Assembly (NCBI RefSeq): GCF_001941975.2
Contig: NZ_CP146991.1
Coordinates: 807,501-871,500 of the forward strand
Direction: 5' to 3'
DNA: 64,000 nt
From: Sporomusa sphaeroides DSM 2875
Lineage (GTDB): Bacteria > Bacillota > Negativicutes > Sporomusales > Sporomusaceae
In this document: piece after piece, positions 7,313 to 21,274 of the stretch
How positions within the stretch are numbered: the first letter of the stretch is position 1
Layout: each line of letters opens with the position of its first letter
Program-made: the position numbers and the translations under genes
The notes under the pieces: generated by a model
Told to the model about the DNA's origin: nothing
What the model saw: only the letters and a program-made list of their open reading frames with translations
The model's database searches: none

Positions 7313-9151
7313 ATGAAGAAACCAAATTCTCAGCCGGAGGCTGAAGAAAAGGATATTTTGCTGGTAACAAAAGCCGATCGGCGCATTCTATCCAAAGTAC
7401 CGGATAAGGAAGGCGGTCGCTCCAATCTCGACAGGCGCCGGCCTAAAAATGCCGATATTTCACAGGACATGAGCGACTTGATCACAGCCGAAAATATGGG
7501 GAAACGTTATGTTGTCAATTATCCGGTGTTGCTTATCTACCAGACCGCCTATGGAAAAACCGTTGCGCACGGTCAAGCACTGGATATTTCCTCCACCGGT
7601 ATTTTAGTCGATGTTTCGCCATCTGTCGCCGCTGAGCTCACCGGGGCGGTTCAGATCAGCTTAAAATTTGAAATTACTCCCGGCTCTATGCCGGAAGGCT
7701 ATGAAATGAAGGTCAACAATATTGCCGCCCAATATGTTCGTACTGTCCAGGCCGGTGACAAAACATATATTGCGTTTGAATTTATCGAAACACTGGCTGA
7801 ATATACACAGCGCAGACGGGGGCGATACCGGCTGACCTTAGCTTCGCTATTTTTATTTTTTATTACTGCCGCTATAGTGCTGATGCGGACAGAAAGTATC
7901 GTTTATTTCAAATTCAACAAAGTCTTGTATACCTACAGCATTATTGCCGCCACCTTTCTTCTTACCCGTTATCTTTTCGGTTCCTTCTACCGGTCTGTGC
8001 CTATTGACAAGGATTACACACCAGGCGTTACTATTATCATTCCCTGCTTTAACGAAGAAAAGTGGATTCAGCGGACAATTACCGGCTGCATCAACCAGGA
8101 TTATCCGCTTGACCGCCTGGAGGTCATCGTTGTGGATGACTGCTCCACCGACAAATCGTTTGAGCGAATTAAAGAGTTTGTAGAAGAATTGAAGCTCAAG
8201 GAAAAACGCTATGACATTGACCAACGGCTCTTATATGTCCGCCAGGAAAAAAATGCCGGCAAGCGTGAGGCAATGGCCAGAGGTGCTTTGATGGCCAAGC
8301 ATGAGCTCCTGGTATTTGTTGATTCTGACAGCTTTTTAGATCCATTTGCTGTCCGCCATATCGTCCAGCCGTTTAAAGACGCCAGGATGGGTGGTGTCTC
8401 CGGGAGGACTGACGTAGCCAACACCTACACCAATACTCTGACAAAAATGCAGTCTGTGCGGTATTACATTGCTTTTCGTATCATGAAGGCAGCGGAAAGC
8501 TATTTTGATGCAGTCACCTGCCTGTCAGGTCCCCTTTCCTGTTACCGCAAGGATTTAATTCTTAAATATATGAAACCCTGGCTAGAGCAAACCTTTTTAG
8601 GAGAAAAGGCCACTTTTGGCGATGACCGCAGCATGACCAACTTCATCCTGCGCCATCATCACACCGGTTATCAAGATTCGGCTATCTGTTACACCATCGT
8701 TCCCAACAAATACAACGTCTTTTTACGGCAGCAAATGCGCTGGAAACGTTCTTGGCTCAGAGAGTCGCTGATCGCTTCACGGTTCATGTGGCAAAAAGAG
8801 CCGTTTATGGCCTTATCTTTTTATATGGGGGTCATAGTGCCGTTTCTCGCACCCATTATCGTGCTGTATAACTTAATCTATATTCCGTTGTTGCACCGGG
8901 TATTTCCCAGCAACTTTTTACTTGGCATTCTCTTAATGGCTCTGCTCATGAGTATGGCTCAGCTATTGCTCAGGAAAAGCTCCACCTGGATTTACGGCAT
9001 GTGGTTTTGCGTATATTATGAGGCAGTGCTGCTTTGGCAGATGCCGATCGCTTGGTTTACTTTCTGGAAATCCAACTGGGGAACCCGGCTGACTCCTGCT
9101 GATGTGCTCGAAAAAATAAAAAAGAATCCCAAAGCGAAAATGAGGGGTTAG
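7313..9151 (+). CDS. PilZ-GT2 processive polysaccharide synthase (hyaluronan-synthase-like)
   Basis: About 612 residues. A charged N-terminus is followed by a PilZ-like domain (about 60-170) with LDISSTG at about 89. Then come two membrane segments and a family 2 glycosyltransferase core: VVDDCSTD (about 274), DSDSF (about 336), GDDRSMTNF (about 435) and QQMRWKRSW (about 472). These are the substrate-binding and Q-x-x-R-W motifs of processive synthases. The GDDR..TN and QQ.RW..S..RES pattern is closest, from memory, to HasA-type hyaluronan synthases. Several C-terminal membrane segments follow. It should polymerise UDP-sugars and extrude the chain, with c-di-GMP as the expected PilZ ligand. 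The first Arg motif is weak (KRYVVN instead of RxxxR), so binding is uncertain. ATG 7313 has GAGG 9 bases upstream; ATG 7304 in the same frame is the alternative. Confidence 0.87.
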   Translation: MKKPNSQPEAEEKDILLVTKADRRILSKVPDKEGGRSNLDRRRPKNADISQDMSDLITAENMGKRYVVNYPVLLIYQTAYGKTVAHGQALDISSTGILVDVSPSVAAELTGAVQISLKFEITPGSMPEGYEMKVNNIAAQYVRTVQAGDKTYIAFEFIETLAEYTQRRRGRYRLTLASLFLFFITAAIVLMRTESIVYFKFNKVLYTYSIIAATFLLTRYLFGSFYRSVPIDKDYTPGVTIIIPCFNEEKWIQRTITGCINQDYPLDRLEVIVVDDCSTDKSFERIKEFVEELKLKEKRYDIDQRLLYVRQEKNAGKREAMARGALMAKHELLVFVDSDSFLDPFAVRHIVQPFKDARMGGVSGRTDVANTYTNTLTKMQSVRYYIAFRIMKAAESYFDAVTCLSGPLSCYRKDLILKYMKPWLEQTFLGEKATFGDDRSMTNFILRHHHTGYQDSAICYTIVPNKYNVFLRQQMRWKRSWLRESLIASRFMWQKEPFMALSFYMGVIVPFLAPIIVLYNLIYIPLLHRVFPSNFLLGILLMALLMSMAQLLLRKSSTWIYGMWFCVYYEAVLLWQMPIAWFTFWKSNWGTRLTPADVLEKIKKNPKAKMRG

Positions 9152-12329: not shown

Positions 12330-15146
12330 ATGAGAAAAAGTTGGCTTATGCCGGTTTTTATCTGTTTGACGCTGGTGGCCGGACTGATCCTGCTTGCTTT
12401 CTACGGAGAAGTGGACCCGGCGAATCACCGTTTTTTAACAAATGACTGGGAGTATTCATGGGGGGACCGCGATCCACAGCACCCGGAAGCCGGTGAGTGG
12501 CTGCCAAAGCAGGGCTCCGGCCGGCCGGAGGGCTACAACGGTCAAAACTACTTGTGGCTGCGTGTGCCTTTGCCGCCGGCGTCGGTCAAAACTCCTACTG
12601 TGTTTACGGAATTTGTACACCAGAGCCTGCAGGTGTATGTAGACGGCACGGCTGTATATCAATATGGCCCTATGCCGGTCCCGCCGGGAGAAAAGCTGCG
12701 CCTCTGGCTTCCTTATCATATTATCCCGCTGCCGGACGATGCTCCCGGTAAAATGCTGTATTTCCGTATTTCTTCGTCCTCTCCGTCTATCGGCATTTTC
12801 GGCGGTGTGGAATATGGTCCCATGTGGGGCATGTACAAATATAAAAATATGATTGAATTTCTGAAATTCTGCGTGTTCTCGCTGCTCACGGCGGCAGGCT
12901 TGTGGTCGCTGATTGTCTACCTGTATGACCGCAAAAAGACGGTGTATCTGGCCTTTGCCGCCAATGCTCTGTGTGGGGCCGGCATCCTTTTTTGCACTAC
13001 CTATAGTTCATTTTTGTTTTATCCGAATCCTGACTTCTGGAATAACTGGATTATTGTGACCAGCCTAAGCTGGAAGATTGTATGGCTACAGTTTCTTATG
13101 TATATCGTAACAGATGTCTGGCGCCGGACGGTGCGGCGTCTGGTCTGGCTGACAGTGGCTTTTTCCTGCCTGCAGATGGCGGCCGCAGTCATGAATCCGC
13201 TGTGGATACAAAGCGTTATGGTTGTTAATATGGTATACAGTATTGGCTGTTACCTGGCTGTGTTGTATTTCTGCCGCTCGCAATTGCGCTTTAACCGGGA
13301 AGCGCAGCTTTATGCCGGCGGCATATCGGTCTGGATGGCGGCAAGTACGGTTGACGCTTTTAATATCGTGGGTGTTATTCATGCACACCTGCTCATTGGC
13401 TGGCTGGGGCAACTGGCTGAAACGTCAAGTCTGGCTGCCATTTTAGCGCTGCGCTACGTGAGCACCCGCAGCCGCCTGCAAAGGTATGCACAGGAACTGG
13501 AAGAGCTTGCGGCCACTTTAGAGACTAAGGTGACCGAGCGCACTGAGAAGTTATCCATCCAAAAAGCCTGTCTGGAACAACTGTTTGCCAACTCGCCTGA
13601 TGCCATTGTCACGCTTGATCCAGAGTACCGGGTCACCAAGGTCAATCCGGCGTTTACCGCCCTGTTCGGCTATACGGCCCGGGAGGCGGAAGGCCGGAGC
13701 ATTGGCCGGCTGCTGTGTGTGCCAGGCGATACACCGGCGGAAGAACATATTCTTGATTGTCCGGACCGGGCTTCGGGCGTTCCGCTGGATATTGTGCGGC
13801 GGCATAAAGACGGTAATTCAGTGGCCATAGCGCTTACGGCGTTTCCATTTGTCACGGAGAGTGGTGAAACCGGCGTTTGTGCCGTCTACCGGGATATTTC
13901 GCGGTGGGCTCTGACCAAGCGCAATCTTATGGACAGTGAGCGCAAATACCGGCTGCTGGCGGAAAATCTCGACGCCGTCGTCTGGCTGATAGATTTTGAT
14001 CAGCGGCCGATTTACATCAGTCCCTCGCTGGAACGACTGACCGGGTATACGCTGACCGAATACCTGCGGCAGCCGCTGCTTAAAGAGAAAAACCGGCGGT
14101 TGCAGGCAGCTGTCGATGAGGTGTGGGACGCATACCGGCAGGGGAAAAAACGGGATACCCCGGTGGTGCTGGAGGAAGAGAAACGCACCAGGGACGGCTG
14201 CCTGATCTGGATTGAATCAACGGTGAATATCGCCTATGACGAAAACGGGGAAGCTCTGGGCATTCTGGGAGTCAGCCGCGACATCACGGCAAGAAAACGT
14301 ACGGAGAAATTGCTGTCGCTTGCCTATGAACGGAAGCGGCTCAACCACTTCTTCAACGATCTACTGGACGGCGTACTGCCTTTTGAGCAGGATATCTATA
14401 ACCGCGCGCGTCAATTGCGCGTGAATTTGCCGCAATCTTTCGCTGTATGTTTCTGTCAGGTGGAAGACAGCCGGCACAGTGCCGGCTCCGAAGGACAGGA
14501 CATGCTGCTGGATGAGGTGGCTGACCGTCTGAACCGGCAGGACGGTCTGGCGGCGTGGAACTTCTCCGGCGGCATTGGGGTAATATGCCGCCTGCCCCTG
14601 CCTTATGGCGGCCGGCAGTCAGAACAGGCAGAGGCCGCCCTCTGTCTGAAGCTGCTGCTGGAGGAGTTTCCCGGCGTGCGTTTCAGCATCGGCGTAGCCG
14701 ACTATTCTACTTCCCTGGCGGACTTTAACAACCGGTTCCGGCATGCTGTCACTGCCGCCAGGATCGGCCGCCGGCGCCGGGAAGACAGTTGTATCCAGTA
14801 CTATGAAGAGTGCGGCATTGACGAGATATTTGATAACTTCGCCGGTACCCGGGAAGCCGAAGCCTTTGTCCGCCGGGTTCTGGGACCCTTGTATGATTAT
14901 GACCGGGATAATGGCACCGAGCTGGTGGAAACGCTGAGCCATATATTATCGCGGGGCACTTTGCGGGAGATTGCGGACATGATGCATATTCATCCTAAAA
15001 CGATTGCCGCCCGCAAGCAGCGTATTGAGCAAATATTAAACATTTCATTGGATTCCTTTGAGGAGCGGATGACTCTTGGAGCGGCTTTGCAGATTGATAA
15101 ATGCAGACTTGATTCAGGTGGAGTCTTAACTCCAGCTGAATCCTAG
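12330..15146 (+). CDS. 7TM receptor fused to PAS domains and a PucR-type DNA-binding domain
   Basis: A 938-residue protein. After a first membrane segment (LMPVFICLTLVAGLILLAFY) there is an extracellular domain (about 30-165) with the look of the jelly-roll sensor of 7TMR-DISM receptors. Seven hydrophobic helices follow (about 170-395), then a coiled coil, two PAS domains (about 415-530 and 540-655), a CdaR/PucR GGDEF-like region (about 665-840) and a C-terminal PucR HTH. The HTH includes TLREIADMMHIHPKTIAARK and QRIEQILNIS (about 880-915). A membrane-bound one-component transcription factor is the simplest reading. The C-terminal half is clearly homologous to the protein at 18300. The target is unknown; the adjacent exopolysaccharide operon and Sia-like operon are candidates. 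ATG behind GGAG. Confidence 0.85.
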   Translation: MRKSWLMPVFICLTLVAGLILLAFYGEVDPANHRFLTNDWEYSWGDRDPQHPEAGEWLPKQGSGRPEGYNGQNYLWLRVPLPPASVKTPTVFTEFVHQSLQVYVDGTAVYQYGPMPVPPGEKLRLWLPYHIIPLPDDAPGKMLYFRISSSSPSIGIFGGVEYGPMWGMYKYKNMIEFLKFCVFSLLTAAGLWSLIVYLYDRKKTVYLAFAANALCGAGILFCTTYSSFLFYPNPDFWNNWIIVTSLSWKIVWLQFLMYIVTDVWRRTVRRLVWLTVAFSCLQMAAAVMNPLWIQSVMVVNMVYSIGCYLAVLYFCRSQLRFNREAQLYAGGISVWMAASTVDAFNIVGVIHAHLLIGWLGQLAETSSLAAILALRYVSTRSRLQRYAQELEELAATLETKVTERTEKLSIQKACLEQLFANSPDAIVTLDPEYRVTKVNPAFTALFGYTAREAEGRSIGRLLCVPGDTPAEEHILDCPDRASGVPLDIVRRHKDGNSVAIALTAFPFVTESGETGVCAVYRDISRWALTKRNLMDSERKYRLLAENLDAVVWLIDFDQRPIYISPSLERLTGYTLTEYLRQPLLKEKNRRLQAAVDEVWDAYRQGKKRDTPVVLEEEKRTRDGCLIWIESTVNIAYDENGEALGILGVSRDITARKRTEKLLSLAYERKRLNHFFNDLLDGVLPFEQDIYNRARQLRVNLPQSFAVCFCQVEDSRHSAGSEGQDMLLDEVADRLNRQDGLAAWNFSGGIGVICRLPLPYGGRQSEQAEAALCLKLLLEEFPGVRFSIGVADYSTSLADFNNRFRHAVTAARIGRRRREDSCIQYYEECGIDEIFDNFAGTREAEAFVRRVLGPLYDYDRDNGTELVETLSHILSRGTLREIADMMHIHPKTIAARKQRIEQILNISLDSFEERMTLGAALQIDKCRLDSGGVLTPAES

Positions 15147-15245: not shown

Positions 15246-15383
15246 ATGTTGCCGGCAGGAAATGGGGAGAGAGTCATGACCAATTGTTGTTTCCTATGCT
15301 TTTTATCCCAATATTAGGCGGATATGGATCACAGGGATAATGGCAGGGTCTATTTTAGGGTACTTTTTTATCCGCACGGATAA

Positions 15384-15413
15384 TGGACAGTAATGATAGT
15401 ATTTTTCTATAAT
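15384..15413 (+). promoter_or_regulatory. Candidate promoter of the Sia-like operon
   Basis: TGGACA (15384-15389), an 18-base spacer and TATAAT (15408-15413), about 80 bases before the V4R gene. It lies in the 347-base gap 15147-15493. Apart from this promoter, the three-helix element and a short hairpin (TTATCCGCACGGATAA, about 15369-15384), I see nothing else in that gap. Confidence 0.5.
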
Positions 15414-15493: not shown

Positions 15494-16027
15494 ATGTATA
15501 AATTTAAAGCCGACAATCAAACCGAACCTTTCAACTGGGAAATGCTTGGTGATGTTGGTATCGGCAGAGCTAATCTGGGGGCCGACATGCCGGTGCTGGT
15601 GTACCGGTTGTTTCAATTTACCTTGCGGGATGTGCTGACACGGACATATGGAGCACAGCAGGCAAGTTCCCTGCTGCGCGCCGCCGGCAAGCTGGCCGGT
15701 GAGGAGTTCTGCAAAAATCTGCTGGATAAAAGCCTTGATTTCGAAGGGTTTGTGGCCCAGCTGCAACAGAAATTATCTGATTTAAAAATCGGGATCCTGC
15801 GCCTGGAATCAGCCGATATGGAAAAAATGGAATTTGTCCTTACGGTGGAGGAGGATTTGGATTGTTCCGGGCTGCCCATTACCGAGGAATCGGTTTGTGA
15901 TTACGATGAAGGGTTTATTGCCGGAATTTTAAATGTATATACGGGAAAAAGTTTCACAGTAAAGGAAATTGACTGCTGGTCTACCGGTGATCGAACCTGC
16001 CGTTTCCGCGTTACCTGTGATAATTGA
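15494..16027 (+). CDS. V4R (4-vinyl reductase) domain sensor protein
   Basis: About 177 residues. LGDVGIGRANLGADMPVLVYRL and GAQQASSLLRAAGKLAGEEFC, then CDYDEGFIAGILNVYTGKSFTVKE and CWSTGDRTCRFRVT at the C-terminus, match the V4R fold used as a small-molecule-binding domain. No enzyme domain is attached. As first gene of an operon with a PP2C phosphatase, SiaB-like kinase and SiaC-like protein, it is the likely input sensor (inference). The final Cys residues (CW..GDRTC) could bind a metal or ligand. ATG 15494 has GGAG 10 bases upstream; GTG 15485 in frame is also possible. Confidence 0.8.
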   Translation: MYKFKADNQTEPFNWEMLGDVGIGRANLGADMPVLVYRLFQFTLRDVLTRTYGAQQASSLLRAAGKLAGEEFCKNLLDKSLDFEGFVAQLQQKLSDLKIGILRLESADMEKMEFVLTVEEDLDCSGLPITEESVCDYDEGFIAGILNVYTGKSFTVKEIDCWSTGDRTCRFRVTCDN

Positions 16028-16039
16028 GCAGCAGTCTGG

Positions 16040-17272
16040 GTGAAGGATATGAAGAATGCAGAATTAGATACATTAGAACAACTGCGGGCTGGCATACGGC
16101 TATTGGCAAAAGGAAGGTATCCGGAGACAGTTTCTGCCGATGGCTGCAGCGAACTGGTAGGAGAGATTGTTTACCTGTTCAACCAGATAGCCGGACATTT
16201 CAAGGAATTATATGAATATGCCGTGCCGCTGGCACGCGGCAATCTGCAAGTGGAACGGCCGGGTAAAACCAACTTTCTGGCAGGCAGTTTGAAGGAGCTT
16301 CATTCCAAGCTCAACCATTTAACCTGGCAGGCGCAGCAAATTGAAAAAGGCGACTATAAACAGCGGGTTGATTTTATGGGAGAATTCTCCCAGGCGTTTA
16401 ACTCCATGGTTAGCAAGCTGGAAGAACGCGAACTGCGCTTAAAGGAAGAGATTCTGGTCCGCCAGCAGGCCGAAGCCGAGGTACGGGAGCAGAATAAACT
16501 GATTACCGACAGTATTCATTATGCGGCTGTTATTCAGCAGTCAGTCTTGCCTGAACCGGCATTTTTGCACAATTATCTTGCCGAGTCTTTTATTATTTGG
16601 CGGCCCCGGGATATTGTCGGCGGTGATTTTTACTGGTACGCGCCCTGTGCCGGCGGCTTCATGGCTGCCGTCATTGACTGCACCGGCCATGGAGTGCCGG
16701 GAGCTTTTATGACGCTGGCCGTTAATCAGATGTTAAAACAACTGCTGGATGAAGACCGGGATTATCAACCGTCTGCTGTCCTGACTTTTTTGGATGAAAA
16801 ATTTCATGAGACCTTTTACGCGAATACTGTGACCAAAGAGCGGCTGTACGCCGGTTTGGATATGGGGCTGGTGAAGGTGGATACGGTTGCGCAAAAGGTT
16901 GTATTTGCCGGTGCCAGGCTGCCGCTTTTTCATGTTCACGACGGGAACCTCAGGGAAATTCCCGGATCGCGCCGTAGTGTAGGTTATGAAAAGAAGAGCC
17001 GCCTGGGCAGAAAAGCCCGGAGTGTTCCTTTTGAGAACCGGGAATTCTATTATGAGCCCGGAGACGGGCTGTATTTATCTACAGATGGTTTTTTTGATCA
17101 ACATGGAGAGAACCCTGATCCTTTCGGCATCGACAGGTTTGCCGAACTAGTAGCAGAATATTTCCCGCTGGCCATGAAAGACCAGAAAACGGCATTGTTA
17201 CAGAGTCTTGAAGCCTATATGGGGATGGAAGCACAGCGGGATGACATTACCGTTATGGGGCTCAAGTTTTAA
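16040..17272 (+). CDS. SiaA-like PP2C (SpoIIE-type) phosphatase, soluble
   Basis: A 410-residue protein. The N-terminus has HAMP-like helices (LARGNLQVERP, QQIEKGDYKQRVDFMGEF) but no membrane segment, then a coiled coil (about 125-165) and a PP2C/SpoIIE domain. Metal-site motifs are visible: IVGGDFYW (about 193), VIDCTGHGVPGAFM (about 211), LSTDGFFDQHG (about 347) and QRDDITVMG (about 398). By family it dephosphorylates a SpoIIAA-like partner, here SiaC (17873). Unlike P. aeruginosa SiaA it has no periplasmic sensor; the upstream V4R protein may supply the signal. The GTG start at 16040 has a poor ribosome site 13 bases behind the V4R stop, suggesting translational coupling. Confidence 0.87.
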   Translation: MKDMKNAELDTLEQLRAGIRLLAKGRYPETVSADGCSELVGEIVYLFNQIAGHFKELYEYAVPLARGNLQVERPGKTNFLAGSLKELHSKLNHLTWQAQQIEKGDYKQRVDFMGEFSQAFNSMVSKLEERELRLKEEILVRQQAEAEVREQNKLITDSIHYAAVIQQSVLPEPAFLHNYLAESFIIWRPRDIVGGDFYWYAPCAGGFMAAVIDCTGHGVPGAFMTLAVNQMLKQLLDEDRDYQPSAVLTFLDEKFHETFYANTVTKERLYAGLDMGLVKVDTVAQKVVFAGARLPLFHVHDGNLREIPGSRRSVGYEKKSRLGRKARSVPFENREFYYEPGDGLYLSTDGFFDQHGENPDPFGIDRFAELVAEYFPLAMKDQKTALLQSLEAYMGMEAQRDDITVMGLKF

Positions 17273-17291
17273 GGAGGTTGGGGAAATAAGT

Positions 17292-17852
17292 ATGATCAAT
17301 GAACAACTACATCGGCTTATTGGCGAGTTAAGCAGTTATGGCATCATTGTCAGTTTTAACGGTTCTTTTACTCAGGGAATTATTGAGGAAATCGGAACAG
17401 CCATTACATCCTATCTGCAGGAAGAAAAGAATACGGAAGAGACAGACATTCATAATGTATTTTCGGTTTATATTGAGCAGTCTCAGAATATCAAAAATTA
17501 TTTTCTGAAAAGCGACGGACCGGACAAACACGAAATCAGCCGCAGGGCTTTTGAAAGTATCATTGTCATCGGTCGTCAGACAGACCGCTTTTTTGTTTGT
17601 TCAGGCAATCTGGTCAGCCATGAAGATGCCAAAGTGTTAAAGGAAAAGATTGATTATATTAACTCAATGGATAAAGACCAGCTGAAAAAATACTATAAAG
17701 AAAAGCTTAAAGCCAGGAGGTCAGATAGTAACTACGATAGCGCCGGTCTGGGGATTATTGATATGGCTCGCAAAGCGACGGCTCCGCTCGATTATATGTT
17801 TGTATCGCGCGATGAGAAGTATTCTTTTTTCACTTTAAAAGTCAGTCTGTAG
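17292..17852 (+). CDS. siaB: SiaB-family protein kinase (DUF6272)
   Basis: 186 residues. ISYGII-type beginning with SSYGIIVSFNGSFTQGIIEEIG, a central VIGRQTDRFFVCSGNLV and a C-terminal LGIIDMARKATAPLDYMF. Family assignment is by overall pattern, length and position between a PP2C phosphatase and a SiaC protein. In P. aeruginosa SiaB is the Ser/Thr kinase that phosphorylates SiaC and opposes SiaA. The G-L-G-I-I-D-M-A segment near residue 155 resembles the G-box of GHKL-type kinases. ATG 17292 follows AAGGAGG; the earlier in-frame ATG at 17208 lies inside the phosphatase gene and is not used. Confidence 0.85.
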   Translation: MINEQLHRLIGELSSYGIIVSFNGSFTQGIIEEIGTAITSYLQEEKNTEETDIHNVFSVYIEQSQNIKNYFLKSDGPDKHEISRRAFESIIVIGRQTDRFFVCSGNLVSHEDAKVLKEKIDYINSMDKDQLKKYYKEKLKARRSDSNYDSAGLGIIDMARKATAPLDYMFVSRDEKYSFFTLKVSL

Positions 17853-17872
17853 CCGGCAAGGAGGGTTTATTA

Positions 17873-18259
17873 ATGGAAAGGTTATATCGGGCGGGTACAA
17901 AATCTTCGCCGGAGGTTGACTTTAACCCCGGTACCGGCATATTGAAGGTATCTGGTCAGTCTTATCCCGAAAATGCCTCCGGGTTTTATCAGGACATTTT
18001 TATTTGGTTGAAAGACTATCTAACAGCTAACCACGGCAGGGTTGTCATGGAACTTAATATTTCCTATATGAATACCAGCAGTACCAAATGCCTGATGGAT
18101 ATTATCTATATGTTGGAAGATGCATTTGCTGAAGGCAGCGATATTTGCATCAATTGGTATTATTCCGCAAAGAACAGAAGTATGCTTGAATGCGGGGAAG
18201 AATTCCGGGAAGAGCTGAGTATGGAATTTAATTTAATTCCCCAGAACTCCGGGCAATGA
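17873..18259 (+). CDS. siaC: SiaC-family regulatory phosphoprotein (DUF1987)
   Basis: 128 residues, the usual length. PEVDFNPGTGILKVSGQSYPENA at the N-terminus and MELNISYMNTSSTKCLMDI in the middle are the family hallmarks. The Thr of the NTSS motif (about residue 61) corresponds to the phosphorylated Thr of P. aeruginosa SiaC. There, unphosphorylated SiaC binds and activates the diguanylate cyclase SiaD. Here the next gene is a PucR-type regulator rather than a GGDEF protein, so its partner may be that regulator. Good ribosome site (AAGGAGGG). Confidence 0.9.
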   Translation: MERLYRAGTKSSPEVDFNPGTGILKVSGQSYPENASGFYQDIFIWLKDYLTANHGRVVMELNISYMNTSSTKCLMDIIYMLEDAFAEGSDICINWYYSAKNRSMLECGEEFREELSMEFNLIPQNSGQ

Positions 18260-18299
18260 TCAGCACTATTGCGAGTACTTTTACTATTGAGGTGTTGTT

Positions 18300-19382
18300 G
18301 TGAGCGACGAAATCAGCCGGTTGTTCCAGGAGGAACTGGAGCAGTTGGAGCAGTTTAAAAGCCGGTGCAGTGATGAACAGTATCAGGGGAATGCATTGAT
18401 GGTTCACTATGCCGATATGGCAAGGATATTTGAAAAAAACCTTCGCTCCATGATGAAGATGACAAAAATCAGCGATTCGCAGCAACTATATTTACAGGAG
18501 ATACAGCAGGAACTGGAACGTGAGATTGAAGAGCGGATTAAGGTGGAAGAAAAATTGGCCGAGTCCTATAAACGGCACCGGCGCAACCAGTTCCTGCTCG
18601 ACCTGGCGGAGGGACATCGGGTCTTTGATGATTCGGCGTGGAATACGGCCAGGCAGCTGATGTTATACTTGCCCACAATATTTCATGTTTTTTATTTGCG
18701 GTTTACTGGTTGGTGCGGCAAATCCTTAAACTGGACGGCGGAAAATGCCGCCGAAGTGCAGACCGATATTGATGCGATGGTAGACAATCTGAATCGGTGT
18801 CAGGGCATTGTCGCCTGGGAATGGGACGAAGGTATCGGCCTCTTGCATTTTGCTTTACCGAAAGACACTAAAGAACAGCAACTGGCTATCGGGACGACTC
18901 TGAAAAAGCAGCTGGCTGTCCGTTTTCCCCGGATCGGGATTGCGGTCGGTATTGCCGGGAAACTAGGCGCATTCGACCGTTTCGCCCATTACTGCAAGCA
19001 GGCACGGGCGGCTGCAGCAGTAGGGTGCCGCCTTTGGCCGGGTATGGATGTCTACCATTACCAGGATGGAGGGGCGTATCAATTGCTGTATCCACTGGCC
19101 GATAGTCAGGATACTGAGGAATTTATTGAAAGAATGATTGGCAATCTGCTGGTGTTTGACCGGGAAAATGGTACCGATTTGCTGCCAACGCTGGAAAAAA
19201 TCCTGCAATCTCCCAACCTCAAGGTGGTGGCGGAGGAAATGTATTTGCACCACAAAACCATAGTGTCCCGGAAACAGCGGATCGAAACTATTTTAGGAAT
19301 TTCACTGGATGCTTTTGATGTCCGGTTTAATATATCTATAGCCCTGCATTTGCTGCGGTTTCGTGAAAATATCCTCCGATGA
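18300..19382 (+). CDS. PucR/CdaR-type transcription regulator with helical N-terminal stalk
   Basis: A 360-residue soluble protein. Residues 1-100 are almost entirely helical and charged (HYADMARIFEKNLRSMMK, ISDSQQLYLQEIQQELE). This resembles, from memory, the N-terminal stalk of SiaD-type cyclases that SiaC binds. Residues about 105-285 match the GGDEF-like region of the PucR/CdaR protein at 12330. The C-terminus (about 295-355) has the PucR HTH, PNLKVVAEEMYLHHKTIVSRK then QRIETILGISLDAF. It probably binds DNA under control of SiaC; both points are inference. The last codons overlap the left arm of a terminator. GTG start 18300 behind GAGGTG. Confidence 0.82.
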   Translation: MSDEISRLFQEELEQLEQFKSRCSDEQYQGNALMVHYADMARIFEKNLRSMMKMTKISDSQQLYLQEIQQELEREIEERIKVEEKLAESYKRHRRNQFLLDLAEGHRVFDDSAWNTARQLMLYLPTIFHVFYLRFTGWCGKSLNWTAENAAEVQTDIDAMVDNLNRCQGIVAWEWDEGIGLLHFALPKDTKEQQLAIGTTLKKQLAVRFPRIGIAVGIAGKLGAFDRFAHYCKQARAAAAVGCRLWPGMDVYHYQDGGAYQLLYPLADSQDTEEFIERMIGNLLVFDRENGTDLLPTLEKILQSPNLKVVAEEMYLHHKTIVSRKQRIETILGISLDAFDVRFNISIALHLLRFRENILR

Positions 19383-19402
19383 TAGGTCGGAGGATATTTT
19401 TT
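19367..19402 (+). terminator. Terminator of the Sia-like operon
   Basis: AAATATCCTCCGA (19367-19379) pairs with TCGGAGGATATTT (from 19387), followed by TTTT. The left arm covers the last codons of the PucR-type gene. The stem is nearly the same as that at 1451-1484. Confidence 0.85.
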
Positions 19403-19422
19403 ATCTTCGCAGGCAATGGATT

Positions 19423-19451
19423 TTGCGGCAGATATCTGGCATGATTATACC
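19423..19451 (+). promoter_or_regulatory. Candidate promoter of the diguanylate cyclase gene
   Basis: TTGCGG (19423-19428), a 17-base spacer and TATACC (19446-19451), about 70 bases upstream of the cyclase start. It lies behind the terminator of the Sia-like operon, so the cyclase has its own transcription start. Confidence 0.45.
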
Positions 19452-19521
19452 ATATACAAAAAAATGGTGCCTTCCCGACTTTTGGGAGAAATGATCGTGT
19501 AAGGCGGGTGATGTTGCTATA

Positions 19522-20583
19522 TTGATTTTCTCTGAATTTGAAGAATTTTTCCAGGATAAATGTATTCCCGTCGGTATATTGGGCATCGTTGGGGTTGCTT
19601 TTAGTGTGAAACAACCATGGGCAGGTATTTTTATTCCCGGGCTATTGATGCTTATACTGCTCAGTATCCTCTATTTCCAGGGAATGGAGGATACTGAGCA
19701 GTCATCACGTGAATGTTCCTACAGTCAGGATGAGATTAAGCGGCTGCTTAACCTGGTTCCTACCCCGGTGGTGCTGATAACCAAAGCCGATTGGCAATTG
19801 GTGCAGCTAAACCGGGCGGCGTCCGATTTGTTTGCTCTTGCGCCGGCAGTGGCGGCGGGAAAATATATGACCGATTTTTTCGGTACAGACCAGAAAGTCT
19901 GGTCTGCCTGGCGTGAACTGCTTCATTACGGTGTCGTGCAGGAGGAACTTCCCCTTTACCGCCACACCGGGGTTGCTTTGGTGATGGCAGTGACCGGCAA
20001 TGTCAGTCTGATGGGTAAGCCTCATCTGATTCTTAGTATGACCGACATTACCGCAAAACATATAGAGGCCAAACGCCTGGAGCAGCTTGCCACCATCGAC
20101 GGCATGACCGGGTTGTTGAACCGGCAGGCCTTTCAGGAAAAACTGGTATTGGCGCTGAAGGCTGCCGGTGAGGAAAAACGTGGACTTTGTTTGGCCTATA
20201 TGGACCTGGATGGTTTGAAACAAGTTAATGATACTTACGGACACCGGGAGGGAGACTGGTATATTAATATTTTCGCAACCTTGCTGCGCAATGGAGTTAG
20301 TGAAAACGATTTTGTTGGCAGAGTGGGCGGCGATGAATTTGCCATAGTCTTTACCAAATGTTCACAGCAGACGGTAGAAGTTTGTATCAGGAAAATGCAG
20401 CAGCAATTGGAATTGACGGCTTCGCGCCTGGAAAAACCTTATACTATGCAAGTCAGTGTGGGCATGATCGCGGTACCGGACGGCGAGAATATTGATGTCG
20501 AGAGCCTGTTGCATAAAGCCGATTATGCCATGTACCAGCAAAAATATGTACGGCAGCCGTCGCCGGTAAAAACAACTTCCTAG
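19522..20583 (+). CDS. Membrane PAS-GGDEF diguanylate cyclase
   Basis: 353 residues. Two short membrane segments (GILGIVGVAFSV and AGIFIPGLLMLILLSILYF), then a PAS domain (about 70-185) and a GGDEF domain. The catalytic motif RVGGDEFAIVF is intact (GGDEF about 269-273) and MDLDGLKQVNDTYGH precedes it. The product-inhibition site RxxD, expected five residues before GGDEF, reads SEND, so its Arg is missing. It should make c-di-GMP from GTP at the inner membrane. Likely clients are the PilZ synthase at 7313 and other targets. The start is TTG 19522 (ATG 19511 runs into a stop); no strong ribosome site is visible and ATG 19648 is an alternative that would remove most of the membrane part. Confidence 0.88.
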   Translation: MIFSEFEEFFQDKCIPVGILGIVGVAFSVKQPWAGIFIPGLLMLILLSILYFQGMEDTEQSSRECSYSQDEIKRLLNLVPTPVVLITKADWQLVQLNRAASDLFALAPAVAAGKYMTDFFGTDQKVWSAWRELLHYGVVQEELPLYRHTGVALVMAVTGNVSLMGKPHLILSMTDITAKHIEAKRLEQLATIDGMTGLLNRQAFQEKLVLALKAAGEEKRGLCLAYMDLDGLKQVNDTYGHREGDWYINIFATLLRNGVSENDFVGRVGGDEFAIVFTKCSQQTVEVCIRKMQQQLELTASRLEKPYTMQVSVGMIAVPDGENIDVESLLHKADYAMYQQKYVRQPSPVKTTS

Positions 20584-20606
20584 CTCATAGTCTGTAAATG
20601 CGAAAG

Positions 20607-20645
20607 AGACCATGTTGAAAGAAAAAGTTCAACATGGTCTTTTTT
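20607..20645 (+). terminator. Terminator of the diguanylate cyclase gene
   Basis: AGACCATGTTGAA (20607-20619) and TTCAACATGGTCT (20628-20640) pair perfectly and are followed by a T-run. Confidence 0.9.
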
Positions 20646-20665
20646 GCATTTGTGGCATTTTACCG

Positions 20666-20851: not shown

Positions 20852-21274
20852 TTGCAGATTGATGCTCTTATATCGGAACTAGGCCACTGTTGTCTGGAAG
20901 AAGAGTTTTGCTTGACATGCAAAAAGGAAAAATGTCTAATCGGGTTTTGCAAGAAATCGCTGATGACAGTACTTAAACAAAAGGATGAATTCATAACCGA
21001 CGGCCTCCGGGATATTCCCTATAGCGACACCAAGGTATATGATACTGATTCGGTGGTGAACGCTATCGGTTTTTTGTTGAACCAATGCCGTAACTGTAAT
21101 GTGTATCATGATGAGGAATGTATTATTAATATCATCCGCTCCAGCCTGGAAATTATTTTGTTAGGCGAAGTTCAGGAATACAAAGGCAGTATGCTGCTGT
21201 ACTTAGGAGATATTAAAAATGTCAATCCCGAGGTAGCAGATCAAGTTTTTCAAAGTGTTCAACAGCGGAAATAG
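20852..21274 (+). CDS. Cys-rich protein of unknown function
   Basis: 140 residues with a TTG start (20852) behind GAGGAGGA. The N-terminal third carries CC, CLTC, C and C spaced over residues 13-33. A second group, CRNCNVYHDEEC, lies at about 79-90. These could bind iron, zinc or a cluster. The rest is helical, with no membrane segment. It is co-transcribed with a rubrerythrin 15 bases downstream under a PerR-like box, so a role in oxidative stress or iron handling is plausible. I do not recognise the family. Confidence 0.75.
   Translation: MQIDALISELGHCCLEEEFCLTCKKEKCLIGFCKKSLMTVLKQKDEFITDGLRDIPYSDTKVYDTDSVVNAIGFLLNQCRNCNVYHDEECIINIIRSSLEIILLGEVQEYKGSMLLYLGDIKNVNPEVADQVFQSVQQRK

Follow-up and report, generated by a model that had tools for sequence, protein, structure and literature searches.

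A Sia-type partner switch with a PucR-type transcription factor as its probable output in Sporomusa sphaeroides DSM 2875

In papers so far, as far as the excerpts available to us go, the role given to the Sia partner switch is to activate a diguanylate cyclase. Here we characterized a locus within a 64,000-nucleotide stretch of the Sporomusa sphaeroides DSM 2875 genome (contig NZ_CP146991.1, positions 807,501 to 871,500; hereafter the window), in which a V4R protein, a PP2C phosphatase, a SiaB-family kinase, SiaC and a PucR-type regulator are encoded in one operon, with a diguanylate cyclase gene behind it (Table 1). The regulator, and not the cyclase, carries an N-terminal segment related to the helical stalk bound by SiaC in Pseudomonas aeruginosa, and we assign a probability of roughly 0.78 to the mechanism proposed below, a Sia-type partner switch with a transcription factor as its direct output. 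The Sia parts themselves are known, and such an output is what would be new: no open-licence PubMed Central (PMC) paper was found to treat SiaC together with PucR, and the accessible excerpts of that literature yielded no description of a SiaC-regulated transcription factor.

All six genes are open reading frames (ORFs) on the plus strand, and the first five lie 19-40 bp apart with the chosen start codons, which are uncertain (alternatives at 16040 for the PP2C and 15485 for the V4R protein). An earlier reading of the DNA without database searches (the sequence-only reading) had already proposed these five genes, including the conserved NTSS site of SiaC, as one operon ending at a terminator and followed by a cyclase, and the domain scores, T68 and the terminator bear this out. 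At the level of equivalogs the three Sia proteins fall short of the NCBIfam models: the PP2C matches SiaA over residues 88-407 with an E-value of 7e-75 and 252.8 bits (cut-off 700), so that no equivalog is assigned, SiaB reaches 140.9 bits with the P. aeruginosa-type model (cut-off 225), and SiaC 117.1 bits (cut-off 150). The alignment of SiaC to the SiaC chains of PDB entries 6kko, 6kkp and 7e6g (E 6.7e-22) is ungapped and conserves T68, with the phospho-site Y65-M-N67-T68-S69-S70 in register with the solved P. aeruginosa protein. The regulator has no match to the Pfam GGDEF enzyme family, and its GGDEF_2 match (18.7 bits) lies under the cut-off of 24.5.

Table 1. Predicted features of the Sia-type locus, in positions of the window.
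Feature	Position	Strand	Evidence
Predicted operon promoter	15368-15413	+	Perfect 16-bp palindrome TTATCCGCACGGATAA (15368-15383), directly followed by the -35/-10 pair TGGACA/TATAAT (15384-15413)
V4R protein, presumably the input, as a soluble sensor of a ligand or of redox state	15494-16027	+	PF02830, 61 bits (cut-off 31)
PP2C phosphatase, SiaA-like, soluble, HAMP-like part (HAMP below cut-off)	16049-17272	+	PF07228, 81 bits (cut-off 25)
SiaB-family kinase	17292-17852	+	NF038262, 181.6 bits (cut-off 85); PDB 6kko chain A, E 3.5e-26
SiaC	17873-18259	+	PF09345, 141.4 bits (cut-off 24.5); T68 codon at 18074-18076
Output regulator, PucR-type: stalk, GGDEF-like domain, helix-turn-helix	18300-19382	+	HTH_30, 42.5 bits (cut-off 27)
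SiaC-docking stalk (by homology), regulator residues 2-81	18303-18542	+	Core ISDSQQ, residues 57-62, at 18468-18485
PucR C-terminal helix-turn-helix (HTH_30)	19179-19349	+	Pfam match
Intrinsic terminator closing the operon	19366-19400	+	15-bp stem and T-run, -20.9 kcal/mol, z -6.3
Candidate regulator-binding element TTATCTTCGCAGGCAATGG	19401-19419	+	Constant spacing to a downstream extended -10-like element TGGCATGAT (19437-19445)
Diguanylate cyclase, PAS-GGDEF, hydrophobic N-terminus, no detectable stalk	19522-20583	+	PF00990, 127.9 bits (cut-off 23.8)

The N-terminal stalk of the regulator is covered by no Pfam family. With phmmer, its residues 2-76 matched the N-termini of SiaC-linked cyclases from other loci (best domain E-value 1.7e-7), and a 15-row profile of cyclase stalks, run against 230 ORFs of the window, retrieved the regulator at 8.7e-16, with the runner-up at 0.87 and the cyclase at 19522 not listed up to an E-value of 10. 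In the opposite direction, a profile built from regulators only matched cyclase stalks (best E-value 5.5e-11, for ORF sets ranging in size from a few hundred to 1022), and profile-profile comparison of the two kinds of stalk gave 1.6e-14. When searched against the PDB, a 22-row stalk profile built without regulators had SiaD from the SiaC-SiaD complex (7e6g) as its best match, at 1.4e-7, with both SiaC-binding motifs aligned, and a 19-row profile also ranked it first (3.5e-4). A phmmer search of the PDB with the full regulator gave chance-like matches only.

According to the excerpts of PMC8457831 available to us, SiaC binds the helical stalk of P. aeruginosa SiaD, with T68 contacting S82 and Q86, and neighbors of T68 contacting Q86 and D83. 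In an ungapped alignment, SiaD residues S82, D83, Q86, I81 and K77 are identical in the regulator as S58, D59, Q62, I57 and K53 (the numbers of the paper being taken as one below the chain numbers, by matching letters), and R80, V78, M88 and D91 are replaced by K, M, Y and E. Positions F9, E12, L16, I57, S58 and D59 are invariant across 19 aligned stalks, and E12, S58 and D59 stay so when seven proteobacterial stalks are added (26 in total, from Bacillota and Proteobacteria). Among the regulators of the four loci described below, residues 51-105, which include the SiaC-contact motif, form the most conserved segment, with 47 of 55 columns identical, as compared with 85/185 in the GGDEF-like segment and 40/65 in the helix-turn-helix segment. 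Judged from these alignments and profiles, regulator residues 2-81 are homologous to the SiaC-binding helical stalk of SiaD.

The AlphaFold2 model of the regulator (three rows; mean predicted local distance difference test, pLDDT, 74.7, lower in the stalk) contains helices at residues 2-23, 32-53 and 59-103, then the GGDEF-like domain and then the helix-turn-helix. Foldseek placed Rv2242 and BAD_0249, which we take to be PucR/CdaR-type regulators, first (best 2.4e-7), followed by both SiaD chains of 7e6g (3.0e-4 and 6.1e-4, with low TM-scores and large root-mean-square deviation), and VIA-align returned many GGDEF chains, with 7e6g at rank 48. As modeled, the layout of a stalk and a GGDEF-like fold is common to the regulator and SiaD, and the regulator sequence carries HTH_30 in addition.

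Stalk and SiaC occur together across genomes. Among 380 genomes of the class, SiaC was present in 25 and a stalk match in 28 at E<=1e-3 and in 22 at E<1e-8; SiaC accompanies 21 of the 22 strong stalks, the exception being a genome that is 73% complete (G316). This association is partly by construction, since 14 of those 21 genomes supplied profile rows; after removal of the row-giving genomes, 7 of 8 strong-stalk genomes contain SiaC, versus 4 of the 358 that remain (Fisher 1.6e-11). Of six weaker matches in the class, two belong to SiaC loci, and the other four (1.4e-4 to 6e-4) come from genomes that lack SiaC. In a sample of 398 genomes of the phylum, into which the genome of the window entered again, the 10 with a stalk are the same 10 with SiaC over the cut-off, and four of them gave no row; G393 was dropped (SiaC E-value 6.9e-4, below the cut-off, with internal stops). 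The 5.0-Mb genome of the window itself has a single SiaC match and one stalk match, the regulator. Because 13-14 candidates per genome were scored after the first look, absence of a stalk is not absolute; two genomes (G346 and G347) gave no match in the class survey, and their SiaC loci were matched by a wider profile at about 1e-7 among 1022 ORFs. With this wider profile, a stalk protein is found in 34 of 35 SiaC loci, of which 19 had supplied profile rows and 15 had not.

The sequence-only reading had suggested a search for conserved SiaC-PucR linkage in relatives, and such linkage recurs. The surroundings of 35 SiaC loci from 34 genomes were examined, and the order SiaC, PucR-type regulator and cyclase was found in four of them, belonging to four genera: the window, L046 (same family) and L041 and L043 (same order), the three relatives having regulators with 77, 72 and 65% identity to that of the window. 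In a tree of SiaC and SiaB from the 33 loci with both genes, these four form one clade with an ultrafast bootstrap of 100. Of the 35 loci, 30 have a cyclase as the stalk protein. In 29 of these, stalk and GGDEF are read in a single frame; in the other (L037) the cyclase frame is broken by unresolved letters, for which reason alignments A1, A3 and A7 do not include it. The arrangement is patchy, since within the same genus SiaC is absent from five other genomes and, where it occurs in three more, is of the cyclase type. A scan of genome contigs with the regulator alignment gave Anaerospora hongkongensis (G293), a member of the same order in the class Negativicutes, as its sole match, and one with the window SiaC confirmed nothing; these scans used exact peptide patterns of little reach and are thus not evidence of rarity. 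L043 and L060 have 4 kb of identical sequence in common.

Three loci depart from these patterns. L047 and L048, which lack SiaB and hence are not in the tree, have SiaC beside a stalk-cyclase and, across about 12 kb, nothing that matches SiaB or PP2C, and their switch may use distant or different enzymes. L057, the second SiaC locus of G694, encodes a PP2C, SiaB and a PAS histidine kinase, with no detectable stalk.

As for the input, the sequence-only reading had envisaged a soluble V4R sensor in place of a periplasmic domain. The soluble part of this proposal holds, as a simple hydropathy test detects no transmembrane-like segment in the PP2C of the window or of the other three regulator loci, versus at least one in 28 of 29 other PP2Cs. 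The V4R protein is less constant, being intact in three of the four loci. In L046 (around 8250-8500) it is degraded to a 40-residue remnant (tblastn 4.8e-4) and the other operon genes are still open, so that the presumed sensor has been lost naturally there.

Sequence comparison establishes that all the parts are present, that the regulator stalk is homologous to stalks that bind SiaC, and that the linkage is conserved; by analogy with SiaD (PMC8457831), we infer SiaC binding, phospho-control, the DNA target, the sign of regulation and the role of V4R. In the mechanism that we propose, the soluble V4R sensor would set the activity of the soluble PP2C, which together with the SiaB kinase would determine the phosphorylation of SiaC at T68. 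Unphosphorylated SiaC would dock on the N-terminal helical stalk of the regulator, as SiaC does on SiaD, and would align two stalks in a dimer, thereby pairing the GGDEF-like domains, which would act as scaffold and not as enzyme, and the helix-turn-helix domains on DNA. The regulator would then act on the next gene, that of the stalk-less cyclase, by way of a conserved element whose end lies 20 bp ahead of a -10-like hexamer, and cyclic di-GMP (c-di-GMP) would be controlled by making the cyclase and not by activating it. The suggestion of the sequence-only reading, drawn mostly from gene order, that SiaC may control a DNA-binding protein is strengthened by the recurrent linkage, the putative stalk on the regulator and the lack of a detectable one on the cyclase at 19522. 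As far as sequence can tell, the outcome that this reading named as its refutation, with no linkage in relatives and SiaC acting solely on that cyclase, does not apply. Its added clause "as well as a cyclase" probably describes an indirect effect, the cyclase being a transcriptional target.

A candidate site for this last step lies in the gap between regulator and cyclase, a gene order kept in all four loci. The best common 20-mer of the four gaps, part of which is the terminator T-run, has 51 of 60 identities, versus a maximum of 39 in 60 Markov shuffles; 11 of the 19 element columns are identical in the four loci, versus 11 in the next 100. The end of the element lies 20 bp from a TGN-preceded hexamer in each locus (CATGAT, TATAGT, TATAGT and CATCAT), so it would fall roughly where an extended -10 promoter has its -35 region, a position suited to an activator. 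The promoter scan lists no promoter at 19437-19445; with counterparts of the extended -10-like element at the same distance in 4/4 loci, the earlier proposal that the cyclase has its own promoter is plausible. We consider it slightly better than an even bet that the stalk-less cyclase is the local target of the regulator.

Other regulatory features were noted. The terminator overlaps the last codons of the regulator and was not listed by a simple terminator scanner; by eye, a similar stem-loop occurs in L041 and L043 and a degraded one in L046. The palindrome TTATCCGCACGGATAA at the operon promoter, possibly the operator of some factor, is also found upstream of the L046 operon, with flanks similar by eye, and is missing from L041 and L043 at <=2 mismatches. 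Genome-wide, it has 33 sites per strand versus 21, and no regulon is readable.

A number of results weigh against the proposed mechanism. The link to the solved SiaC-SiaD complex runs via intermediate stalks, since a four-row regulator-only profile reaches SiaD at an E-value of 2.4 (rank 10, not significant) and a 15-row Bacillota cyclase-only profile at 0.063 (rank 3, behind two unrelated proteins). The NCBIfam SiaD model matches the regulator N-terminus weakly (0.018; 1.8e-4, 1.1e-3 and 0.086 for the regulators of the three relatives), SiaD contact residues R74, R84, Y85 and R90 are not kept, a single ISD motif is seen where SiaD has two, and the structural model has a predicted TM-score of 0.53, with pLDDT of 55-72 over residues 1-90. 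To these are added the retention of the operon in L046 after the loss of V4R and, for the candidate element, a weak dyad symmetry (6-10/19 across the four loci, 6/19 in the window), its position abutting the terminator T-run, and a genome-wide count of the YTATCTTYSCRRSCRATRG element that is not clearly enriched (16 matches at <=2 mismatches versus 11 in the reversed control), in which the sole other match with fewer than two mismatches lies inside a gene and no regulon is readable. Given the weak symmetry and the lack of clear enrichment, the assignment of the cyclase as target is put forward as a hypothesis.

Three other explanations were considered. The stalk match could be a generic coiled-coil similarity with no meaning for SiaC, as helical profiles attract unrelated proteins (1xx7 at 4.1e-5 with the 22-row profile, and first with the 15-row cyclase-only profile), the NCBIfam IF-2 alpha model scores 1.9e-4 with the L046 regulator, and weak stalk matches occur in four genomes without SiaC; nevertheless, strong matches are found almost only in SiaC genomes, also when row-giving genomes are excluded, three residues are invariant in 26 stalks of two phyla, and SiaD ranks first in the PDB with both larger profiles, so we regard this explanation as very improbable. 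It is also improbable, to a lesser degree, that SiaC directly controls the cyclase at 19522, the regulator being a passenger that shares the operon. A GGDEF cyclase does lie downstream in all four regulator loci, and the SiaC partner in the excerpts of PMC8457831, SiaD, is a cyclase; yet the cyclase of the window shows no stalk by profile and sits behind a terminator, its N-terminus is not common to the four loci (by eye in the alignment, a hydrophobic extension in two and none in two), and it is the SiaC-contact segment that is the most conserved part of the regulator.

PucR/CdaR-type regulators usually control metabolic genes, and a more serious possibility, to which we nonetheless give clearly less than even odds, is that SiaC binds the regulator and that the latter acts elsewhere, on its own operon or on metabolic genes, the neighboring cyclase not being its target or the element belonging to another factor or to the terminator. 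The position of the element next to the terminator and its lack of clear genome enrichment are compatible with this, and the palindrome shared by the operon promoters of the window and L046 offers a second candidate site. Against it stand the regulator-cyclase order kept in four genera, the fixed spacing to TGN-extended -10-like hexamers, and the absence of the element, derived from the four regulator loci, at <=1 mismatch from the 31 other SiaC loci.

The combination of a putative transcription factor output with Sia parts would set this locus apart from the closest known systems. In RsbU/RsbV/RsbW switches of Bacillus, the logic of PP2C, kinase and STAS protein likewise ends in transcription, and there the kinase holds a sigma factor, which is the output, whereas here SiaC would bind the transcription factor itself; if the stalk is a general SiaC receiver, a PP2C/kinase switch would act directly on a classical transcription factor, with no sigma factor. 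Sia loci of other Bacillota (30/35) likewise contain SiaC and a stalk protein, in almost every case together with SiaB and PP2C, and differ in having stalk and GGDEF in one frame (29) and PP2Cs mostly with transmembrane-like segments. With SiaABCD of P. aeruginosa, as far as the excerpts of PMC8457831 and PMC7647112 go, the locus has in common a PP2C, SiaB, SiaC with T68 and a stalk output encoded together, as well as the stalk contacts S82, D83 and Q86. Unlike it, the predicted output is a PucR-type transcription factor and not a cyclase, one SiaC motif is seen versus two in SiaD, the PP2C is soluble, and there is an extra V4R gene. As the stalk is on the regulator and none is detectable on the cyclase at 19522, the locus is not SiaABCD in the strict sense. 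The HsbA-HsbD and BgrV-BgrR pairs, named in the excerpts of PMC8457831, resemble it in that a STAS-like phosphoprotein controls an output protein, but use other STAS proteins, and their named outputs are cyclases. The same excerpts raise the possibility that modulation of adjacent proteins is a general role of DUF1987 proteins, and in excerpts of PMC9239204 further PP2C/STAS pathways whose outputs are merged are proposed, with SiaABCD cited as an instance.

Stalks were also found on proteins other than cyclases and PucR-type regulators. On four Azospirillum plasmids (L077, L097, L098 and L099), the genes after SiaC encode an annotated histidine kinase and a cyclase, each of which carries a stalk (2.7e-11 to 3.2e-10 for the kinases and 2.5e-9 to 6.1e-8 for the cyclases, using a profile without proteobacterial rows; HisKA and HATPase_c confirmed for one kinase), so one SiaC may serve two outputs there. 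In two Bacillota of one genus, divergent stalk histidine kinases (L052:3514-4542, 3.9e-15, and L055:3484-4497, 2.9e-14; the latter scanned for kinase domains, the former called a kinase by similar sequence) adjoin Sia loci that already have a stalk-cyclase. The typical 540-residue stalk protein of L029, the only one of that length scanned, combines GGDEF and HD. Nineteen plasmid records contain SiaC, and 11 were fetched: a stalk lies beside SiaC in 6 of the first 8 (two weak, 1.5e-4 and 2.7e-3) and in 3 of 3 later ones, and L083 and L084, Bacteroidota plasmids with SiaC, gave no stalk match.

Given its presence on histidine kinases as well, the stalk looks like a portable SiaC receiver. In a broader form, which we hold to be fairly probable, it would be a receiver domain with exchangeable outputs (cyclases, GGDEF-HD proteins, histidine kinases and a DNA-binding regulator on a non-enzymatic GGDEF-like fold), a counterpart of the two-component receiver, and c-di-GMP control in this lineage would have shifted from activating to transcribing a cyclase. 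The switch is suggested to be a plug-in module, and if the stalk is a general SiaC receiver, the outputs of SiaC systems would be recognisable from sequence. SiaC docking on a GGDEF enzyme versus a GGDEF-like regulator would also constitute a natural experiment, in which the dimerization model proposed for SiaD is testable on a protein without catalysis.

Some neighboring features complete the description of the locus. The gene at 12330-15146 encodes a 7TM-DISM-like part, two PAS domains and a PucR-type output module as in the Sia regulator, with which it aligns over regulator residues 73-353 (E 5.5e-43); both have HTH_30 and a putative GGDEF-like domain, as known from PucR/CdaR/AdeR-type regulators, and the neighbor has 7TM-DISM and PAS where the regulator has its SiaC stalk. 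By eye, a remnant of the tail of this gene precedes the L046 operon, so the neighborhood may be old. An Rfam search gave microRNA and ctRNA matches only, all far below gathering scores. A long hairpin with a T-run at 20592-20657, after the cyclase, is probably the cyclase terminator and has weak microRNA-family matches. Further downstream, 20852-21274 encodes a cysteine-rich protein of 140 residues with no Pfam match, and the next ORF was judged by eye to be a rubrerythrin.

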